Of a DNA stretch of 64,000 bases, positions 2,666 through 56,414 are shown in pieces. This stretch comes from Roseococcus sp. SYP-B2431 (GTDB lineage: Bacteria > Pseudomonadota > Alphaproteobacteria > Acetobacterales > Acetobacteraceae). The stretch is from assembly GCF_004336745.1 (NCBI RefSeq), contig NZ_SJXD01000031.1, positions 1 through 64,000 on the forward strand. The letters run 5' to 3'. The first letter of the stretch is position 1. Every line of letters starts with the position of its first letter. The notes beneath the pieces are model-generated. The model searched no databases. It was not told the origin of the DNA and saw nothing but the letters and a program-made list of their open reading frames with translations. A program made the translations under genes and the position numbers.

Positions 2666-3814
2666 TCAGGCGAAGCGGACCGCCAGCACCGTCACGTCGT
2701 CGGCCGGCGGCGCCGTCTTCACGAAATCGGCCACGCCTTTCAGCAGGGCCCCAATCGCCGGCGCCGGTTCCACCAGCGACCCCAGCGCCGCCAGCACCGC
2801 CTCCTTGCCGAACAACTCGCCCGCCAGATCCTGCGCCTCGGTCACGCCATCGGTCAGCAGCAGCATCGCCTCGCCCGGCGCCAGCGCGAAGGGCGCGCTG
2901 GAATAGGGAAACTCCTCCGTGACGCCGAGCGCGGGCTGGATGGAATAGCCGCCCATCACCTGCACGCCCGAACCCGTCAGCCGCAAGGGCGGCTCATGCC
3001 CCGCCACGCAGATCCGCCCCTCGCCCGTCTCGGCGTCCAGGACCGCCAGGGCGGCCGTCACGAAGGTCATGTCCGGATTGTCGAGGGCCAGGTCGTCATT
3101 CGCGAGCGCCAGCAGCGCGCCCGGATCGGGCACCTCGCCCCGCGCATCGGCGAGCCGCACGCCCGCGCGGATCAGCCCCATGCTGCGCGCCATGGTGAGT
3201 CCCGCCGAGGCGCCCTTCCCCGCCACGTCCGCCACCACGAACATCAGGTGCCGGCTGCCGATCCAGCGCATGTCGTAGAGATCGCCGCCCACCTCGCGCG
3301 CCGGCTCCATATGCGCGGCCACCGTGAGCCGCCCGCGCGACAGCCCCGCGAAATCGCGCGGCACCAGCGAGAGCTGCGCCTGCCGGGCGCTCTCCAGCTC
3401 CGCCTCCAGCGCGTGCAGCCGCTCGGCCGCCAGATCGCGCAGCCGCTTCTTCTCCAGCACCGCCTGGAGCCGCGCCTTCAGCAGCGGCGGGTCGAAGGAC
3501 TTCGGAAGATAGTCCTCCGCCCCCAGCTCGATGCAGCGAATGACGCCCGACATCTCCGTCTGCGCCGAGATCACGATGACCGGCGGGGCCTTCGGCATGC
3601 CGTGCAGCCGCTCCAGCACGCCGATGCCGTCGAGCTCCGGCATCTCCAGGTCGAGCAGCACCACGTCGAAGGGCTTCTGCGCGATCGCGGCCAGCGCCTC
3701 GACGCCGTTCACCGCCATGGCCGGCTCGCCATAGCCGAGCTCGGCCAGCCTCCGCTTCAGCAGCAGCCGGTTGAAGCTGCTGTCGTCGACGATGAGTATT
3801 TCGGCAGGAGTCAT
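2666..3814 (-). CDS. Response regulator with PP2C (SpoIIE/RsbU-type) phosphatase output
   Basis: Seen: 382 residues. Residues 1-120 form a receiver domain with acidic pair D10-D11, phospho-acceptor D55 (LLDLEMPELDG), S83 and K105. A helical linker follows, then a PP2C phosphatase domain from about 165 with REVGGDLYDM, VADVAGKGASAGL and LLTDGVTEA metal-binding motifs. Known: such proteins dephosphorylate an anti-sigma-factor antagonist or similar phosphoprotein when the receiver is phosphorylated. Neighbours: CheA and a chemoreceptor flank it, suggesting CheA-to-REC signalling (inference). No anti-sigma or STAS gene is visible. Its leader is occupied by one copy of the dispersed repeat at 3821-3932, whose end supplies a GAGGG 7 nt before the ATG. 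Confidence 0.9.
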   Translation of the reverse strand: MTPAEILIVDDSSFNRLLLKRRLAELGYGEPAMAVNGVEALAAIAQKPFDVVLLDLEMPELDGIGVLERLHGMPKAPPVIVISAQTEMSGVIRCIELGAEDYLPKSFDPPLLKARLQAVLEKKRLRDLAAERLHALEAELESARQAQLSLVPRDFAGLSRGRLTVAAHMEPAREVGGDLYDMRWIGSRHLMFVVADVAGKGASAGLTMARSMGLIRAGVRLADARGEVPDPGALLALANDDLALDNPDMTFVTAALAVLDAETGEGRICVAGHEPPLRLTGSGVQVMGGYSIQPALGVTEEFPYSSAPFALAPGEAMLLLTDGVTEAQDLAGELFGKEAVLAALGSLVEPAPAIGALLKGVADFVKTAPPADDVTVLAVRFA

Positions 3815-3820
3815 ATATTC

Positions 3821-3932
3821 GCCCTCAGACGCCGGGCGCCGCCTCCGGCGGCTTGGCTTCGCCGCGCCACTGGTCCGCCCGGCCGGGCGGTCCGTTGGGC
3901 GGCGCCGGCCGCCGTCGCGGCCGGATTCTCGG
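3821..3932 (-). repeat. Structured dispersed repeat, copy A, in the leader of the receiver-phosphatase gene
   Basis: Read on the minus strand, the block runs from CCGAGAAT, through a perfect hairpin CCGGCCGC-GACG-GCGGCCGG (3924 down to 3905), a GC palindrome at 3890-3875 and GCGGCGAAGCCAAG, to a second hairpin GCCGCC-GGA-GGCGGC, and ends GCCCGGCGTCTGAGGGC at 3821. The ATG begins 6 nt further on. A second copy with the same order of parts lies at 54839-54947 on the plus strand, directly before the MFS gene. Both copies also end in a short frame closing at the same TGA. Family name unknown. Confidence 0.75.
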
Positions 3933-3974
3933 CATACGTCGCCAAGCCTGAGCGGGCGGCCCCTGTTGTCGGCA

Positions 3975-48074: not shown

Positions 48075-49073
48075 ATGATGTTCGACTGGATCAGGCGCGG
48101 CGCTTGCGCGGCCATGCTGCTCACGGGACTCGGCGCGAATGGCGGCGCCCAGGCGCAGGAATTCCCGCAGCCGGGCCGCCCGCTGATGTTCGTCTCCGGC
48201 TTCCCGGCCGGCACCGCCATCGACATCTATGGCCGCATCATTCTCGAGCGCGTCCAGCGCGAGCTCGGCGTGCCCATGGTCATCGACATCCGCTCCGGCG
48301 CCTCGGGCAATATCGGCATGGAGCACGTGGCGCGCGCGGCGCCGGACGGGCACACGATCACGCTCGCCACCTCGGCCATGATGGCGATCAACCCGGCCGT
48401 CTTCCCGCGCATGCCGATCGACACGCAGGCCGACCTCGTGCCGATCCTGGGCGTCTTCGACGCGCCGAACTTCATGACGGTGAGCACGGAGAAGCGGCCC
48501 GACTTCACCACCTGCCAGGCCGTGGTCGATGCGGCGCGGGCCCGCCCCGGCCAGCTGAACTACGCGAGCACGGGCAATGGCGCCTCCACGCATCTTGCCG
48601 GCGCGCAATTCGCCTCGGTGCTGGGGCTCAACCTCGTGCACGTGCCCTATCGCGGCGGGCCCTTCGCCATGACGGCGCTGTACCAGGGCGACGTGGACGT
48701 CTTCTTCTACCAGACCGGCCCAGTGATCGAGTTCTACCGCCAGGGCCGCGTGCGCCTGCTCGCCGTCACCTCCGGCCAGCGCGTGGCCGCCGTGCCGGAG
48801 GTCCCGACCGTGGCGGAGGCCTGCAACCTGCCCGGCTTCGACAGCACCACCTGGTACGCGCTGATGGCGCCGGCGCGCACCCCGCAGCCCATCCTGAATC
48901 GCCTCACCGAGGTCTTCACCCGCGTGGCGAACGAGCCCGAGGTGCGCGAGCGCATCGCCGCCATGGGCTTCACACCCAACGTGCAGCCGCCCGAGGCGAC
49001 GCGCGCGCGGCTGGCCCGCGACATCGTCACCTGGCGGGACGTCGTCGCGCGGACCGGCGCGCGCGCGGAGTAG
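48075..49073 (+). CDS. Bug/TctC-family tripartite tricarboxylate receptor
   Basis: Seen: 332 residues from the ATG at 48075 (next codon but one, 48078, also possible). The signal peptide region is RRGACAAMLLTGLGANGGAQAQ, cut before EFPQPGRPLMFVSGFPAGTA. Then SGASGNIGMEHVARAAPDG and HVPYRGGPFAMTALYQGDVD. Known: receptor of the same family as the four others in the window. It has an unusual Cys (DFTTCQAVVDA) and ends right where the 101-bp tandem repeat begins. Downstream LysR gene is on the same strand. Confidence 0.9.
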   Translation: MMFDWIRRGACAAMLLTGLGANGGAQAQEFPQPGRPLMFVSGFPAGTAIDIYGRIILERVQRELGVPMVIDIRSGASGNIGMEHVARAAPDGHTITLATSAMMAINPAVFPRMPIDTQADLVPILGVFDAPNFMTVSTEKRPDFTTCQAVVDAARARPGQLNYASTGNGASTHLAGAQFASVLGLNLVHVPYRGGPFAMTALYQGDVDVFFYQTGPVIEFYRQGRVRLLAVTSGQRVAAVPEVPTVAEACNLPGFDSTTWYALMAPARTPQPILNRLTEVFTRVANEPEVRERIAAMGFTPNVQPPEATRARLARDIVTWRDVVARTGARAE

Positions 49074-49276
49074 AGCATGATCGCCGCGGGTGGAATCACC
49101 GGAGGCGTGGATCAGGCTCCAGACGAGAGGCTGGAGGCCTTGCCGTGAGCGCTTGCGAGCGGAAAAGCCTCTCGAGCATGATCGCCGCGGGTGGAATCAC
49201 CGGAGGCGTGAATCAGGCTCCGGACGAGAGGCTGGAGACCTTGCCGTGAGCGCTTGCGAGCGGAAAAGCCTCTAGC
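49074..49276 (+). repeat. 101-bp tandem duplication ending at the LysR start codon
   Basis: Two nearly identical units start with AGCATGATCGCC at 49074 and 49175 and differ at three bases plus a 2-nt gap. A third partial unit (AGCATG at 49274) supplies the LysR ATG at 49277. Each unit contains a 23-codon open frame from its ATG (MIAAGGITGGV...ERLE) to a TGA, and an inverted pair AGAGGCT...AGCCTCT bracketing its second half. No other copies exist in the window. Confidence 0.85.
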
Positions 49277-54801: not shown

Positions 54802-54809
54802 GCCCATGA

Positions 54810-54835
54810 GCGTTCCAGCCCAGGACCAGGAACGC
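54810..54835 (+). terminator. Hairpin after accA
   Basis: GCGTTCC-N12-GGAACGC, 8 bp after the accA stop, followed by CTCCCG. Weak T content, so probably only partly efficient. It is directly upstream of repeat copy B. Confidence 0.4.
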
Positions 54836-54838
54836 CTC

Positions 54839-54947
54839 CCGAGGATCCGGCCGCACAGCGGCCGGCGCGCCCAGACTGCCTGGCGGATGGCGCAGCCGGC
54901 GCGGCGCGAAGCCAAGGCGGCGAAGCCGCCGCCCGGCGTCTGAGGGC
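54839..54947 (+). repeat. Structured dispersed repeat, copy B, in the leader of the MFS gene
   Basis: CCGAGGAT then hairpin CCGGCCGC-ACA-GCGGCCGG (54847-54865), GCGCGGCGCGAAGCCAAG, hairpin GGCGGC-GAA-GCCGCC (about 54917-54931), and CGCCCGGCGTCTGAGGGC ending at 54947. The MFS ATG follows at 54948. It matches copy A (3821-3932) part for part. The 3' hairpin arms are swapped relative to copy A (GCCGCC/GGCGGC there). It also contains an 18-codon frame from ATG at about 54887 to the TGA at 54941, just before the MFS start. Confidence 0.75.
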
Positions 54948-56414
54948 ATGAACAACGCTTCTTCCCGCGCCGCCTTCTTCCGCGCCTTCCCCGCCATCGC
55001 CACCGCGATCTTCGTCTCCTCCATCGACCAGACCATCACCGCCACCGCCCTCCCCGACATGGCCGCCCATTTCGGCGTGGTCGAGCGCATCTCCTGGGTG
55101 GTCGTGGCCTATCTCGTCGCCGCCACCATCTCCGCCCCCATCTTCGGCAAGCTCGGCGACGCCTATGGCCGCCGCCGCATGATGTTCTGCGCCTTCGCCC
55201 TGCAGGCCGTGGGCTCGCTGGCCTCGGGCCTCGCCCCCGGCTTCGAGGCGCTGCTGGCCGCGCGCATCCTGCACGGCTTCGGCGGCGGCGCGCTGCTCAC
55301 CCTCGCCATGGCCCTGATCGGCGAGAGCGTCCCGCCCCGGGAGCGCGGCCGCTACCAGGGCTACCTCGTCGCCTGCTTCATGAGCGCCTCGGCCGCCGGT
55401 CCGCTCGCCGGCGGCTGGCTGACGCAGCATTGGGGCTGGAACTGGGTCTTCTGGGCCGGCCTGCCCATCGTGGCCGCGGGCGTGGTCGCCACGACCCGCC
55501 TGCCCCGCCACGGCGCCGAGAGCGGCAGCTTCCGCTTCGACGCCCCTGGCACGCTGCTCTTCGCCGTCTTCGTCGCCGCCCTGCTGCTGGTGCTGGACCG
55601 CGTCCAGCGCCTGAGCCTCGAGGCCCTGCTGGTCGCCCTCCCCTTCGCCGCGGTGGCCCTCGGCGCGGTGCTGCTGCTGCTGCGCGTCGAGCGCCGCGCG
55701 GCCGACCCGCTGCTGCCCCTCTGGCTCTTCACCGACCCGGTGATCTGGCGCACCAACGTGCTCGCCGCCTGCGTGGCGGGCGTGATGGTCTCCATGATCT
55801 CCTTCATGCCGCTCTACCTGACCGTGGTGCGCGACGTCTCCATCGCGACGGTGGGCGCCATGATGCTGCCGACGAGCCTCGCCGGCGGCATGGGCGCGCT
55901 GGCCTCCGGCCACTACCTGGCGCGGACCGGGCGCAACATGGCGCTGCCCTCGGTGACGCTGGGCATCAGCATGGTGACGCTGGCCGTCTTCTCCGTCGCG
56001 CTCGACGACATCTCGCTCGGCGCCCTGCCCTGGCTGCTGGCCTTCGCGAGCTTCGGCTTCGGCTGCTCCTTCCCGGCCGTGCAGACCACGGTGCAGGCGG
56101 CGGCCGGGGTAAGCCGGGTGGGGGTGGCCACGGCCTCGGTGCAGTTCATGCGCAACCTCGGCTCGGCGACGGGAACGGCGCTGCTGGGCGCGGTGATCTT
56201 CGGGGCGTTTGCCCTGGCGGATGCGCCGATGGCGGCGGGCTTCGCCGAGACGATGCGCGGGGGGCGGGCGGCCTTTTCCCTCCTGTCGGAGGCGGATCGG
56301 ATGGCGATGTCGGCAGGGCTGGCCGGGGGATTTAGGGCGATGTTCGCGGGAGCGGCGGTGCTGATGGGGGTGGCGACGGTGCTGGCTTGGCGGGTGCCGT
56401 TGCGAAGGGTTTAG
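54948..56414 (+). CDS. MFS transporter, DHA2 (drug:H+ antiporter) family
   Basis: Seen: 488 residues with 13-14 membrane segments. The opening SSIDQTITATALPDMAAHFG matches the first helix of DHA2 pumps, and GKLGDAYGRRRMM is motif A after helix 2. Motif C-like ISAAGPLAGGWLTQHWGW (starting ASAAGPLAGG) follows. Known: proton-driven export of drugs or toxic metabolites. Repeat copy B abuts its start; the only ribosome-binding candidate (GAGGG) is 1 nt from the ATG, unusually close, so initiation may depend on leader structure or be leaderless-like. Monocistronic by context. Confidence 0.9.
   Translation: MNNASSRAAFFRAFPAIATAIFVSSIDQTITATALPDMAAHFGVVERISWVVVAYLVAATISAPIFGKLGDAYGRRRMMFCAFALQAVGSLASGLAPGFEALLAARILHGFGGGALLTLAMALIGESVPPRERGRYQGYLVACFMSASAAGPLAGGWLTQHWGWNWVFWAGLPIVAAGVVATTRLPRHGAESGSFRFDAPGTLLFAVFVAALLLVLDRVQRLSLEALLVALPFAAVALGAVLLLLRVERRAADPLLPLWLFTDPVIWRTNVLAACVAGVMVSMISFMPLYLTVVRDVSIATVGAMMLPTSLAGGMGALASGHYLARTGRNMALPSVTLGISMVTLAVFSVALDDISLGALPWLLAFASFGFGCSFPAVQTTVQAAAGVSRVGVATASVQFMRNLGSATGTALLGAVIFGAFALADAPMAAGFAETMRGGRAAFSLLSEADRMAMSAGLAGGFRAMFAGAAVLMGVATVLAWRVPLRRV

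Follow-up and report, generated by a model that had tools for sequence, protein, structure and literature searches.

The window analysed here, a 64,000-nt stretch of the Roseococcus sp. SYP-B2431 genome, carries two copies of a structured repeat (Table 1). Copy A lies before a receiver-phosphatase gene, and copy B lies before an MFS gene. From 5' to 3', the repeat is composed of hairpin P1, stem P2, the linker GAAGCCAAG, hairpin P3, and then GCCCGGCGTYTGAGGGC. According to the preliminary description, both leaders share all of these parts in the same order, the ATG of copy A follows 6 nt past the tail, and copy B ends at a start codon; all of this is present in the sequence. The element limits given there were approximate, as the modelled cores are slightly different and the DNA missing from element-free relatives reaches further 5'. 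The well-spaced GAGGG noticed in the last bases of copy A holds for that copy and could serve as a ribosome-binding site.

The tail GCCCGGCGTCTGAGGGC is exact in both window copies. Within the window alone, at up to 3 mismatches, two tail matches were found against 2.05 expected, though both are exact. Genome-wide, at up to 2 mismatches, the tail matched 82 times and the reversed pattern once, and this whole-genome count settles the tail observation beyond the window-only evidence. In the search of the window with covariance model R1, the next-best match reached 15.2 bits (filters off), against 93.6 and 89.1 bits for copies A and B. The window also contains, at 49073-49273, a 101-bp unit repeated twice in tandem with 97% matches, in a gap between two called genes.

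Table 1. Features of the two repeat copies in the window and of the adjoining DNA.
Feature	Position	Strand	Evidence
Copy A, modelled core (P1, P2, GAAGCCAAG, P3, tail)	3821..3927	-	R1, 93.6 bits
Copy A, hairpin P1: CCGGCCGC (3924-3917) / GCGGCCGG (3912-3905), loop GACG	3905..3924	-	sequence; near-invariant helix in the source genome
Copy A, P2: CGCCGC (3904-3899) with GCGGCG (3865-3860), variable inside	3860..3904	-	two of six pairs covary
Copy A, conserved linker GAAGCCAAG, end bases shared with P2 and P3	3852..3860	-	alignment A2
Copy A, hairpin P3: GCCGCC GGA GGCGGC, variable stem, compensatory changes	3838..3852	-	covariation
Copy A, conserved tail GCCCGGCGTCTGAGGGC	3821..3837	-	82 genome matches vs 1 control
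Copy A, possible 4-bp stem P4 in the tail, invariant	3821..3837	-	predicted
Copy A, A/T-rich 6-nt junction from tail to start of receiver-phosphatase gene	3815..3820	-	
Receiver-phosphatase gene, ATG at 3814	2666-3814	-	own codon-usage gene calls
Copy A, extra 5' DNA from upstream stop to core	3928..3974	-	missing with the core in 14 of 16 orthologous loci
Copy B, modelled core	54844..54947	+	R1, 89.1 bits
Copy B, hairpin P1	54847..54865	+	sequence
Copy B, P2: CGCGCC / GGCGCG, second P2 type	54866..54908	+	sequence, covariation
Copy B, linker GAAGCCAAG	54908..54916	+	sequence
Copy B, hairpin P3: GGCGGC GAA GCCGCC	54916..54930	+	sequence
Copy B, tail; MFS gene start at 54948 directly after	54931..54947	+	sequence
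Copy B, 5' DNA from upstream gene end (54801) to core	54802..54843	+	comparison with element-free loci
Copy B, possible hairpin P0, 54810-54816 with 54829-54835	within 54802..54843	+	predicted

Model R1 comprises 106 positions and was built from 21 full copies of the source genome, including both window copies; the alignment of these copies has a mean column identity of 82%. RNAalifold on the 21 copies resulted in a P1 of 8 bp, a P2 of 6 bp enclosing a variable segment, a P3 of 6 bp, and a tail closure of 4 bp. The element is about 105 nt or longer, and P1, P2, and P3 among its four modelled helices are backed by covariation. Within the source genome, P3 and two of the six P2 pairs covary. The cells changed on both sides numbered 41, against 14.8 in shuffled alignments, and sliding the helix partners abolished the pairing; the pairs changed on both sides were not in excess (6 against 5.4). 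P1 and the tail closure are near-invariant in this genome and therefore carry little covariation information there.

Across taxa, we compared 29 diverse copies, in which P1, P2, and P3 each have pairs changed on both sides. Here, 118 cells changed on both sides against 40.7 in shuffles, with a covariation score of 0.422 against 0.109; as before, the number of pairs with changes on both sides was not in excess (15 against 13.6). The shuffled controls ignore relatedness, whereas the slid controls keep it and scored from 0.044 to 0.100. The rows of alignment A3 were chosen by the exact core pattern, so that GAAGCCAAG and the tail are invariant there by construction; the P1 pairs, the P2 pairs, and the P3 stem are free of this selection. 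In 6 of the 29 diverse copies, P2 has a tandem G-A / A-G mismatch at its centre, and such mismatches in RNA often form sheared pairs.

Further hairpins accompany some copies. P0-like hairpins lie 5' of P1 in several other taxa; as a general feature, P0 was not recovered in the source genome, where stems above threshold reached 8%, against 12% in shuffled sequence. In four source-genome copies (L113 C1:502028, L112 C2:88190, L119 C2:45980, and L121 C12:87116), a 23-bp palindrome, a hairpin of the GGTTGGGGC-GCCCCAACC type found in both orientations, replaces P3 or sits inside it. Among the fetched loci and the window, which were scanned for it, this palindrome looks like another small repeat that is nested in the main one. 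In G001 (L315), the copy preceding the MFS orthologue holds an extra nested hairpin of about 35 nt in its P1 loop.

The R1 search of the source genome gave 85 matches at E <= 1, of which the 80 with E <= 0.05, scoring at least 30.5 bits, were used for the context counts. The genome search with a covariance model, proposed earlier, thus revealed about 80 copies, so further copies do exist. In total, the search covered 41 genomes, with at most 96 candidates scored in each. Matches at E <= 1e-4 were found in 21 of 21 genomes of the genus, including the source genome, with 1 to at least 96 copies per genome. At this threshold, none of the four genomes from other genera of the family had an R1 match, and one of 16 other genomes of the class did (G035).

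The exact core pattern was found in at least 115 stretches of a named genome collection. Among the matches listed, the records belong to Roseomonas, Falsiroseomonas, Neoroseomonas, Roseococcus, Rubritepida, Acidiphilium, and Azospirillum, as well as Sphingomonas, Erythrobacter, Qipengyuania, Porphyrobacter, Blastomonas, and others, and many come from one uncultured Rhodospirillales assembly. Copies of the source-genome type occur in Roseococcus and Rubritepida records. The core is common to genera of several alphaproteobacterial orders; it is thinly spread, as an even draw of the class had the exact core in 5 of 385 genomes, including the source genome. Plasmids gave partial matches in seven records, all of Azospirillum or Niveispirillum, and phage records gave no match to the element. 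In IMG/VR viral contigs, 16 stretches (L331-L346) match a relaxed core pattern.

Some copies are arranged in arrays. At L118 (C12:221702-222082), a divergent subtype forms an array of three head-to-tail copies with a period of 138 bp, and the arrays of a second species, G015, have a period of mostly 117-119 bp. In G015:C1, none of the 68 listed copies lies at 1.94-3.01 Mb of the 5.1-Mb genome; this stretch may correspond to the terminus region, provided that the record begins at the origin.

The preliminary description had read the repeat as landing in the same orientation just before start codons, as a 5'-UTR cassette would, and had named random orientation beforehand as an outcome that would count against a leader. 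Of the 80 source-genome copies, 28 are co-directional and 31 antisense within tandem gene pairs, 19 are in convergent gaps, and 2 are in divergent ones. The tandem orientation, 28 against 31 of 59, does not depart from even (p = 0.79), and with this random orientation the leader reading fails. Divergent gaps are depleted, with 2 of 80 copies against 61 of 203 control gaps (p = 2.5e-8); these gaps, of at least 30 nt, come from the fetched loci, some of which overlap so that some gaps are counted twice. Gene limits were taken from our own codon-usage caller, whose start for the mnmA-like gene (L063) seems to be 18 nt too far downstream. In G015, 25 of the 30 best copies (out of 68) were readable, and their tandem sites lean towards antisense: by site, there were 12 antisense tandem, 3 co-directional tandem, 7 convergent, and 1 divergent. 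A lagging-strand insertion bias was not detected (mean GC skew of 0.006 in element orientation, p = 0.12).

In 50 of the 80 copies, including the 19 convergent ones, the 3' end of the element faces the 3' end of an antisense gene. For 18 of the 80, a co-directional start follows within 20 nt. Among these start-adjacent copies, 13 have a spacing of 5-8 nt between element and start, and GAGGG is intact in 11 of the 13; in copy B, 0 nt separate the element end from the start. The GAGGG spacing is a by-product for a subset of copies and not a general rule. As stated earlier for the two window genes, the downstream genes are unrelated: 17 of the 18 genes behind start-adjacent copies were scanned, and they share no common theme. 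They include, under symbols that we partly presume from family names, mnmA-like, biotin carboxylase, acyl carrier protein synthase, nrdR, rsmD-like, moaC, glutamyl/glutaminyl-tRNA synthetase, rlmJ-like methyltransferase, and MFS transporter genes. At L121, roughly 1 kb separates copies C12:87116 and 88142, which precede the starts of two neighbouring genes, one of the Mur-ligase family and one for a carboxyl transferase, by 7 and 6 nt; copy 88142 is a degraded one of 30.5 bits.

The comparison of orthologous sites bears out the earlier suggestion that the repeat is mobile, since element-free sites were found at both window loci and elsewhere. For copy A, 17 orthologous loci were compared, the source genome included, and 16 were readable. 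The element is present in two of these, the source genome and G012 (90% protein identity), and absent from 14. By eye, the upstream stop overlaps the downstream start as ATGA or GTGA in 13 of these 14. For copy B, 18 loci were compared and 17 were readable, of which three have the element (the source genome, G001, and G007) and 14 do not; the element-free loci include, by eye, five with the stop/start overlap TGATG and three with a 4-nt spacing. The DNA missing from the element-free window loci reaches some tens of bases 5' of the modelled core.

Nine further sites were compared through collinear DNA, and eight were assessable; L350:15643-15752 was left out as it had no anchors. G012 carries the element at one of the eight sites. 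G007 is without a whole copy at seven, one of them with a partial copy, and at site 74273 it has 8 bases against 181. G001 carries the element at all six sites read, and in two of these copies P3 is lost or cut down. No clear target-site duplication was seen at the filled sites in this comparison. From presence and absence at orthologous junctions, it follows that the element enters or leaves junctions on a species time scale. Given the number of relatives without the element, absence was probably, for the most part, the older state at the window loci; losses could account for part of the pattern: G001 has six of six sites filled, two of them with a P3 that is lost or cut down.

An A-tract marks the 3' junction. 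For the flank statistics, we used 65 full copies of at least 54 bits, with tandem-array copies included. At least four A at +3 to +8 past the tail were counted in 41 of the 65 copies. Among 162 control genes, the same was true of 1 immediately upstream of the start and, counting T, of 2 immediately downstream of the stop; the control genes came from fetched loci that partly overlap, so some were counted twice. Of the 25 copies facing a start, 15 end 0-11 nt from it; of the 40 facing an antisense gene, 29 end no more than 18 nt from the stop. The 5' end is more loosely positioned than the 3' end. In G015, the A-tract was found in 13 of 25 readable copies (best 30 of 68 fetched). The sharp rule is the element 3' end against an A-tract at the edge of a gene. 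The element-free sites 439884 and 87116 in G007 already contain an A-rich stretch, and it is missing at the element-free sites 235593, 449038, and 87116 in G012. With the tract present at some element-free sites and missing at others, it is probably, but not provably, a feature of the target, as a preference for the target is hard to tell apart from the end of the element.

The upkeep of P3 was followed in six comparisons between orthologous copies, two of which concern copy B. Over the 59-76 aligned positions 5' of P3, the identity is 82-90%. In five of the six comparisons, P3 has changed at two or more pairs yet remains complementary, once with a G-T pair; in the sixth, copy B against G007, P3 is little changed and one pair is lost. 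Four comparisons were left out of the six: 74273 in G012, where P3 is unchanged; 74273 and 439884 in G001, where P3 is cut down or lost; and 87116, whose P3 in the source genome carries a nested hairpin. In addition, at least five perfect P3 pairs occur in 45 of the 56 source-genome copies (of 65) in which the linker motif was found. We read many, though not all, resident copies as having been kept paired at P3. P3 sits between the two most conserved blocks, and thus exchange between copies could also explain its changes.

The repeat is multicopy, has covarying hairpins, is present or absent at the same junctions in different genomes, and places its 3' end at an A-rich tract, which reads as a T-tract on the opposite strand, near a stop or a start. 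It is a mobile repeat that only sometimes lies before a start codon and not a dedicated gene switch, and the earlier interpretation is, overall, partly supported. The two window leaders are probably two copies of a non-autonomous, insertion-mobile structured repeat. An enzyme acting in trans would move the element into sites with a T-tract. It would probably recognise the hairpins together with two conserved motifs, GAAGCCAAG and the tail, and the insertion would leave no obvious target duplication. Surviving insertions would sit where the harm is small, at the junctions of tandem genes and in convergent gaps, and insertions in divergent promoter regions would be purged. After a sense-side landing before a start, the GAGGG tail could substitute for a lost ribosome-binding site; after an antisense landing, the element would become the 3' untranslated region of the gene next to it. 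In many resident copies, the hairpins would be preserved through compensatory change or through exchange with other copies, and these copies may act in place as RNA punctuation, for instance by shielding mRNA 3' ends.

As for the mobiliser, Y1_Tnp (PF01797) was found in 0 of 16 genomes of the genus, the source genome included, and mobilisation by a Y1/RAYT enzyme was rejected on this basis. Of the 21 genomes of the genus, 7 gave a reverse transcriptase match, and the source genome gave none. No autonomous parent bracketed by element ends was seen near the copies, with scan patterns that were too strict. In its widest form, the mobile-repeat reading describes a multi-helix class spanning several alphaproteobacterial orders, which would spread without a RAYT-type transposase, through a single-stranded DNA or RNA route to gene-end T-tracts; its copies would be selected for structure, with P3 as a swappable self-complementary cassette, and would act as RNA punctuation after landing. 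We put this forward tentatively, as a rather doubtful proposition when taken in all its parts.

Other explanations were weighed against the mobile repeat. A mostly static, REP-like 3'-UTR element, which would serve mRNA 3'-end stability or punctuation and whose spread would be rare or past, agrees with the 50 of 80 copies whose 3' end faces the 3' end of an antisense gene and with the P3 pairing kept in five of six orthologous copies despite changes. Its location rule also agrees with that of published REPs in the available part of PMC3733652. However, the presence/absence turnover between species of the genus is high, P3 has been lost in some orthologous copies (74273 and 439884 in G001), and no T-run directly follows the element's own hairpins, by eye, as it would in an intrinsic terminator. 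We consider such an element improbable. A target-primed, retroposon-like element, whose RNA 3' end would pair with target T-tracts, could draw on the RNA-like fold and the 3' junction at A-tracts, but neither a reverse transcriptase match in the source genome, despite about 80 copies, nor a clear target duplication was found, which makes it extremely unlikely.

A mobile 5'-UTR cassette or a riboregulator shared by the downstream genes would account for the covarying structure and for the 18 of 80 copies within 20 nt of a co-directional start, with 13 at 5-8 nt and 11 of these with GAGGG. Against it stand the tandem counts (28 against 31, and 3 against 12 sites in G015), a similarly tight 3' junction at the stop codons of antisense genes, the unrelated functions of the 17 scanned target genes, and the absence of the element from 14 of 16 and 14 of 17 orthologous window loci. 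On these counts, the cassette is very unlikely. A riboswitch or cis-leader was rejected, as there is no consistent sense orientation and the downstream genes are unrelated.

The mobile repeat has counterparts among known systems. As far as the available source text describes GTAG REPs and REPINs, the element resembles them in being small, multicopy, hairpin-bearing, mobile, and intergenic. Unlike those accompanied by RAYT, its consensus has no GTAG tag, and PF01797 is found in 0 of 16 genomes of the genus; membership of this group was rejected for both reasons. MITEs are short non-autonomous insertions, and the element is MITE-like in this sense; it appears to differ in that no terminal inverted repeats were seen in its consensus, with a 5' end placed approximately, and no clear target duplication at its filled sites. 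With its hairpin ends, one-sided T-tract, and no clear duplication, the element is similar in outline to the single-strand elements of the IS200/IS605 type, but no matching enzyme was found in the 16 genomes of the genus searched, and it shows no strand bias against GC skew. The Rfam gathering scan of the window gave no match, and the Rfam E-value scan of eight loci gave seven matches, none overlapping an element. No description of the element was found in the titles and abstracts of the open-access literature searched, and the word Roseomonas is absent from the main text of the RepRanger paper (PMC12306157).

Among the repeats described so far, the CGTC REPs of alphaproteobacteria come closest to the element. 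In the available part of the article by Di Nocera et al. (2013; PMC3733652), CGTC REPs are intergenic palindromes with no dedicated transposase known, located between tandem and convergent genes and near gene 3' ends. REPs are given there as 20-40 bp long, and CGTC REPs as single hairpins, defined by an unpaired terminal CGTC/TGTC/CCTC tag and a stem of 8-9 bp whose first two pairs are A/T, mostly ending in a CCA tail; they are stated to be missing from Acetobacteraceae. By this partial account, our element is similar in its intergenic position, its tandem and convergent contexts, its location near gene 3' ends, and in that no transposase was found. It differs in its length of about 105 nt or more, its three covarying hairpins, and its 17-nt conserved tail, which carries CGTY internally. 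Membership of the CGTC REPs was rejected, as the 21-copy consensus lacks the terminal tag, stem, and CCA features and is not a small single palindrome. The element has the high copy number, palindromes, intergenic position, and tandem or convergent contexts of REPs in the broad sense; it works like a REP yet falls outside the GTAG and CGTC definitions. The CGTC REPs already raised, in the same part of PMC3733652, the question of how alphaproteobacterial palindromes move without a dedicated transposase. The element-free sites in relatives, the sharp junction rule, and the strong covariation make this question testable, and an insertion of this kind can split overlapping gene pairs and bring a new ribosome-binding site.
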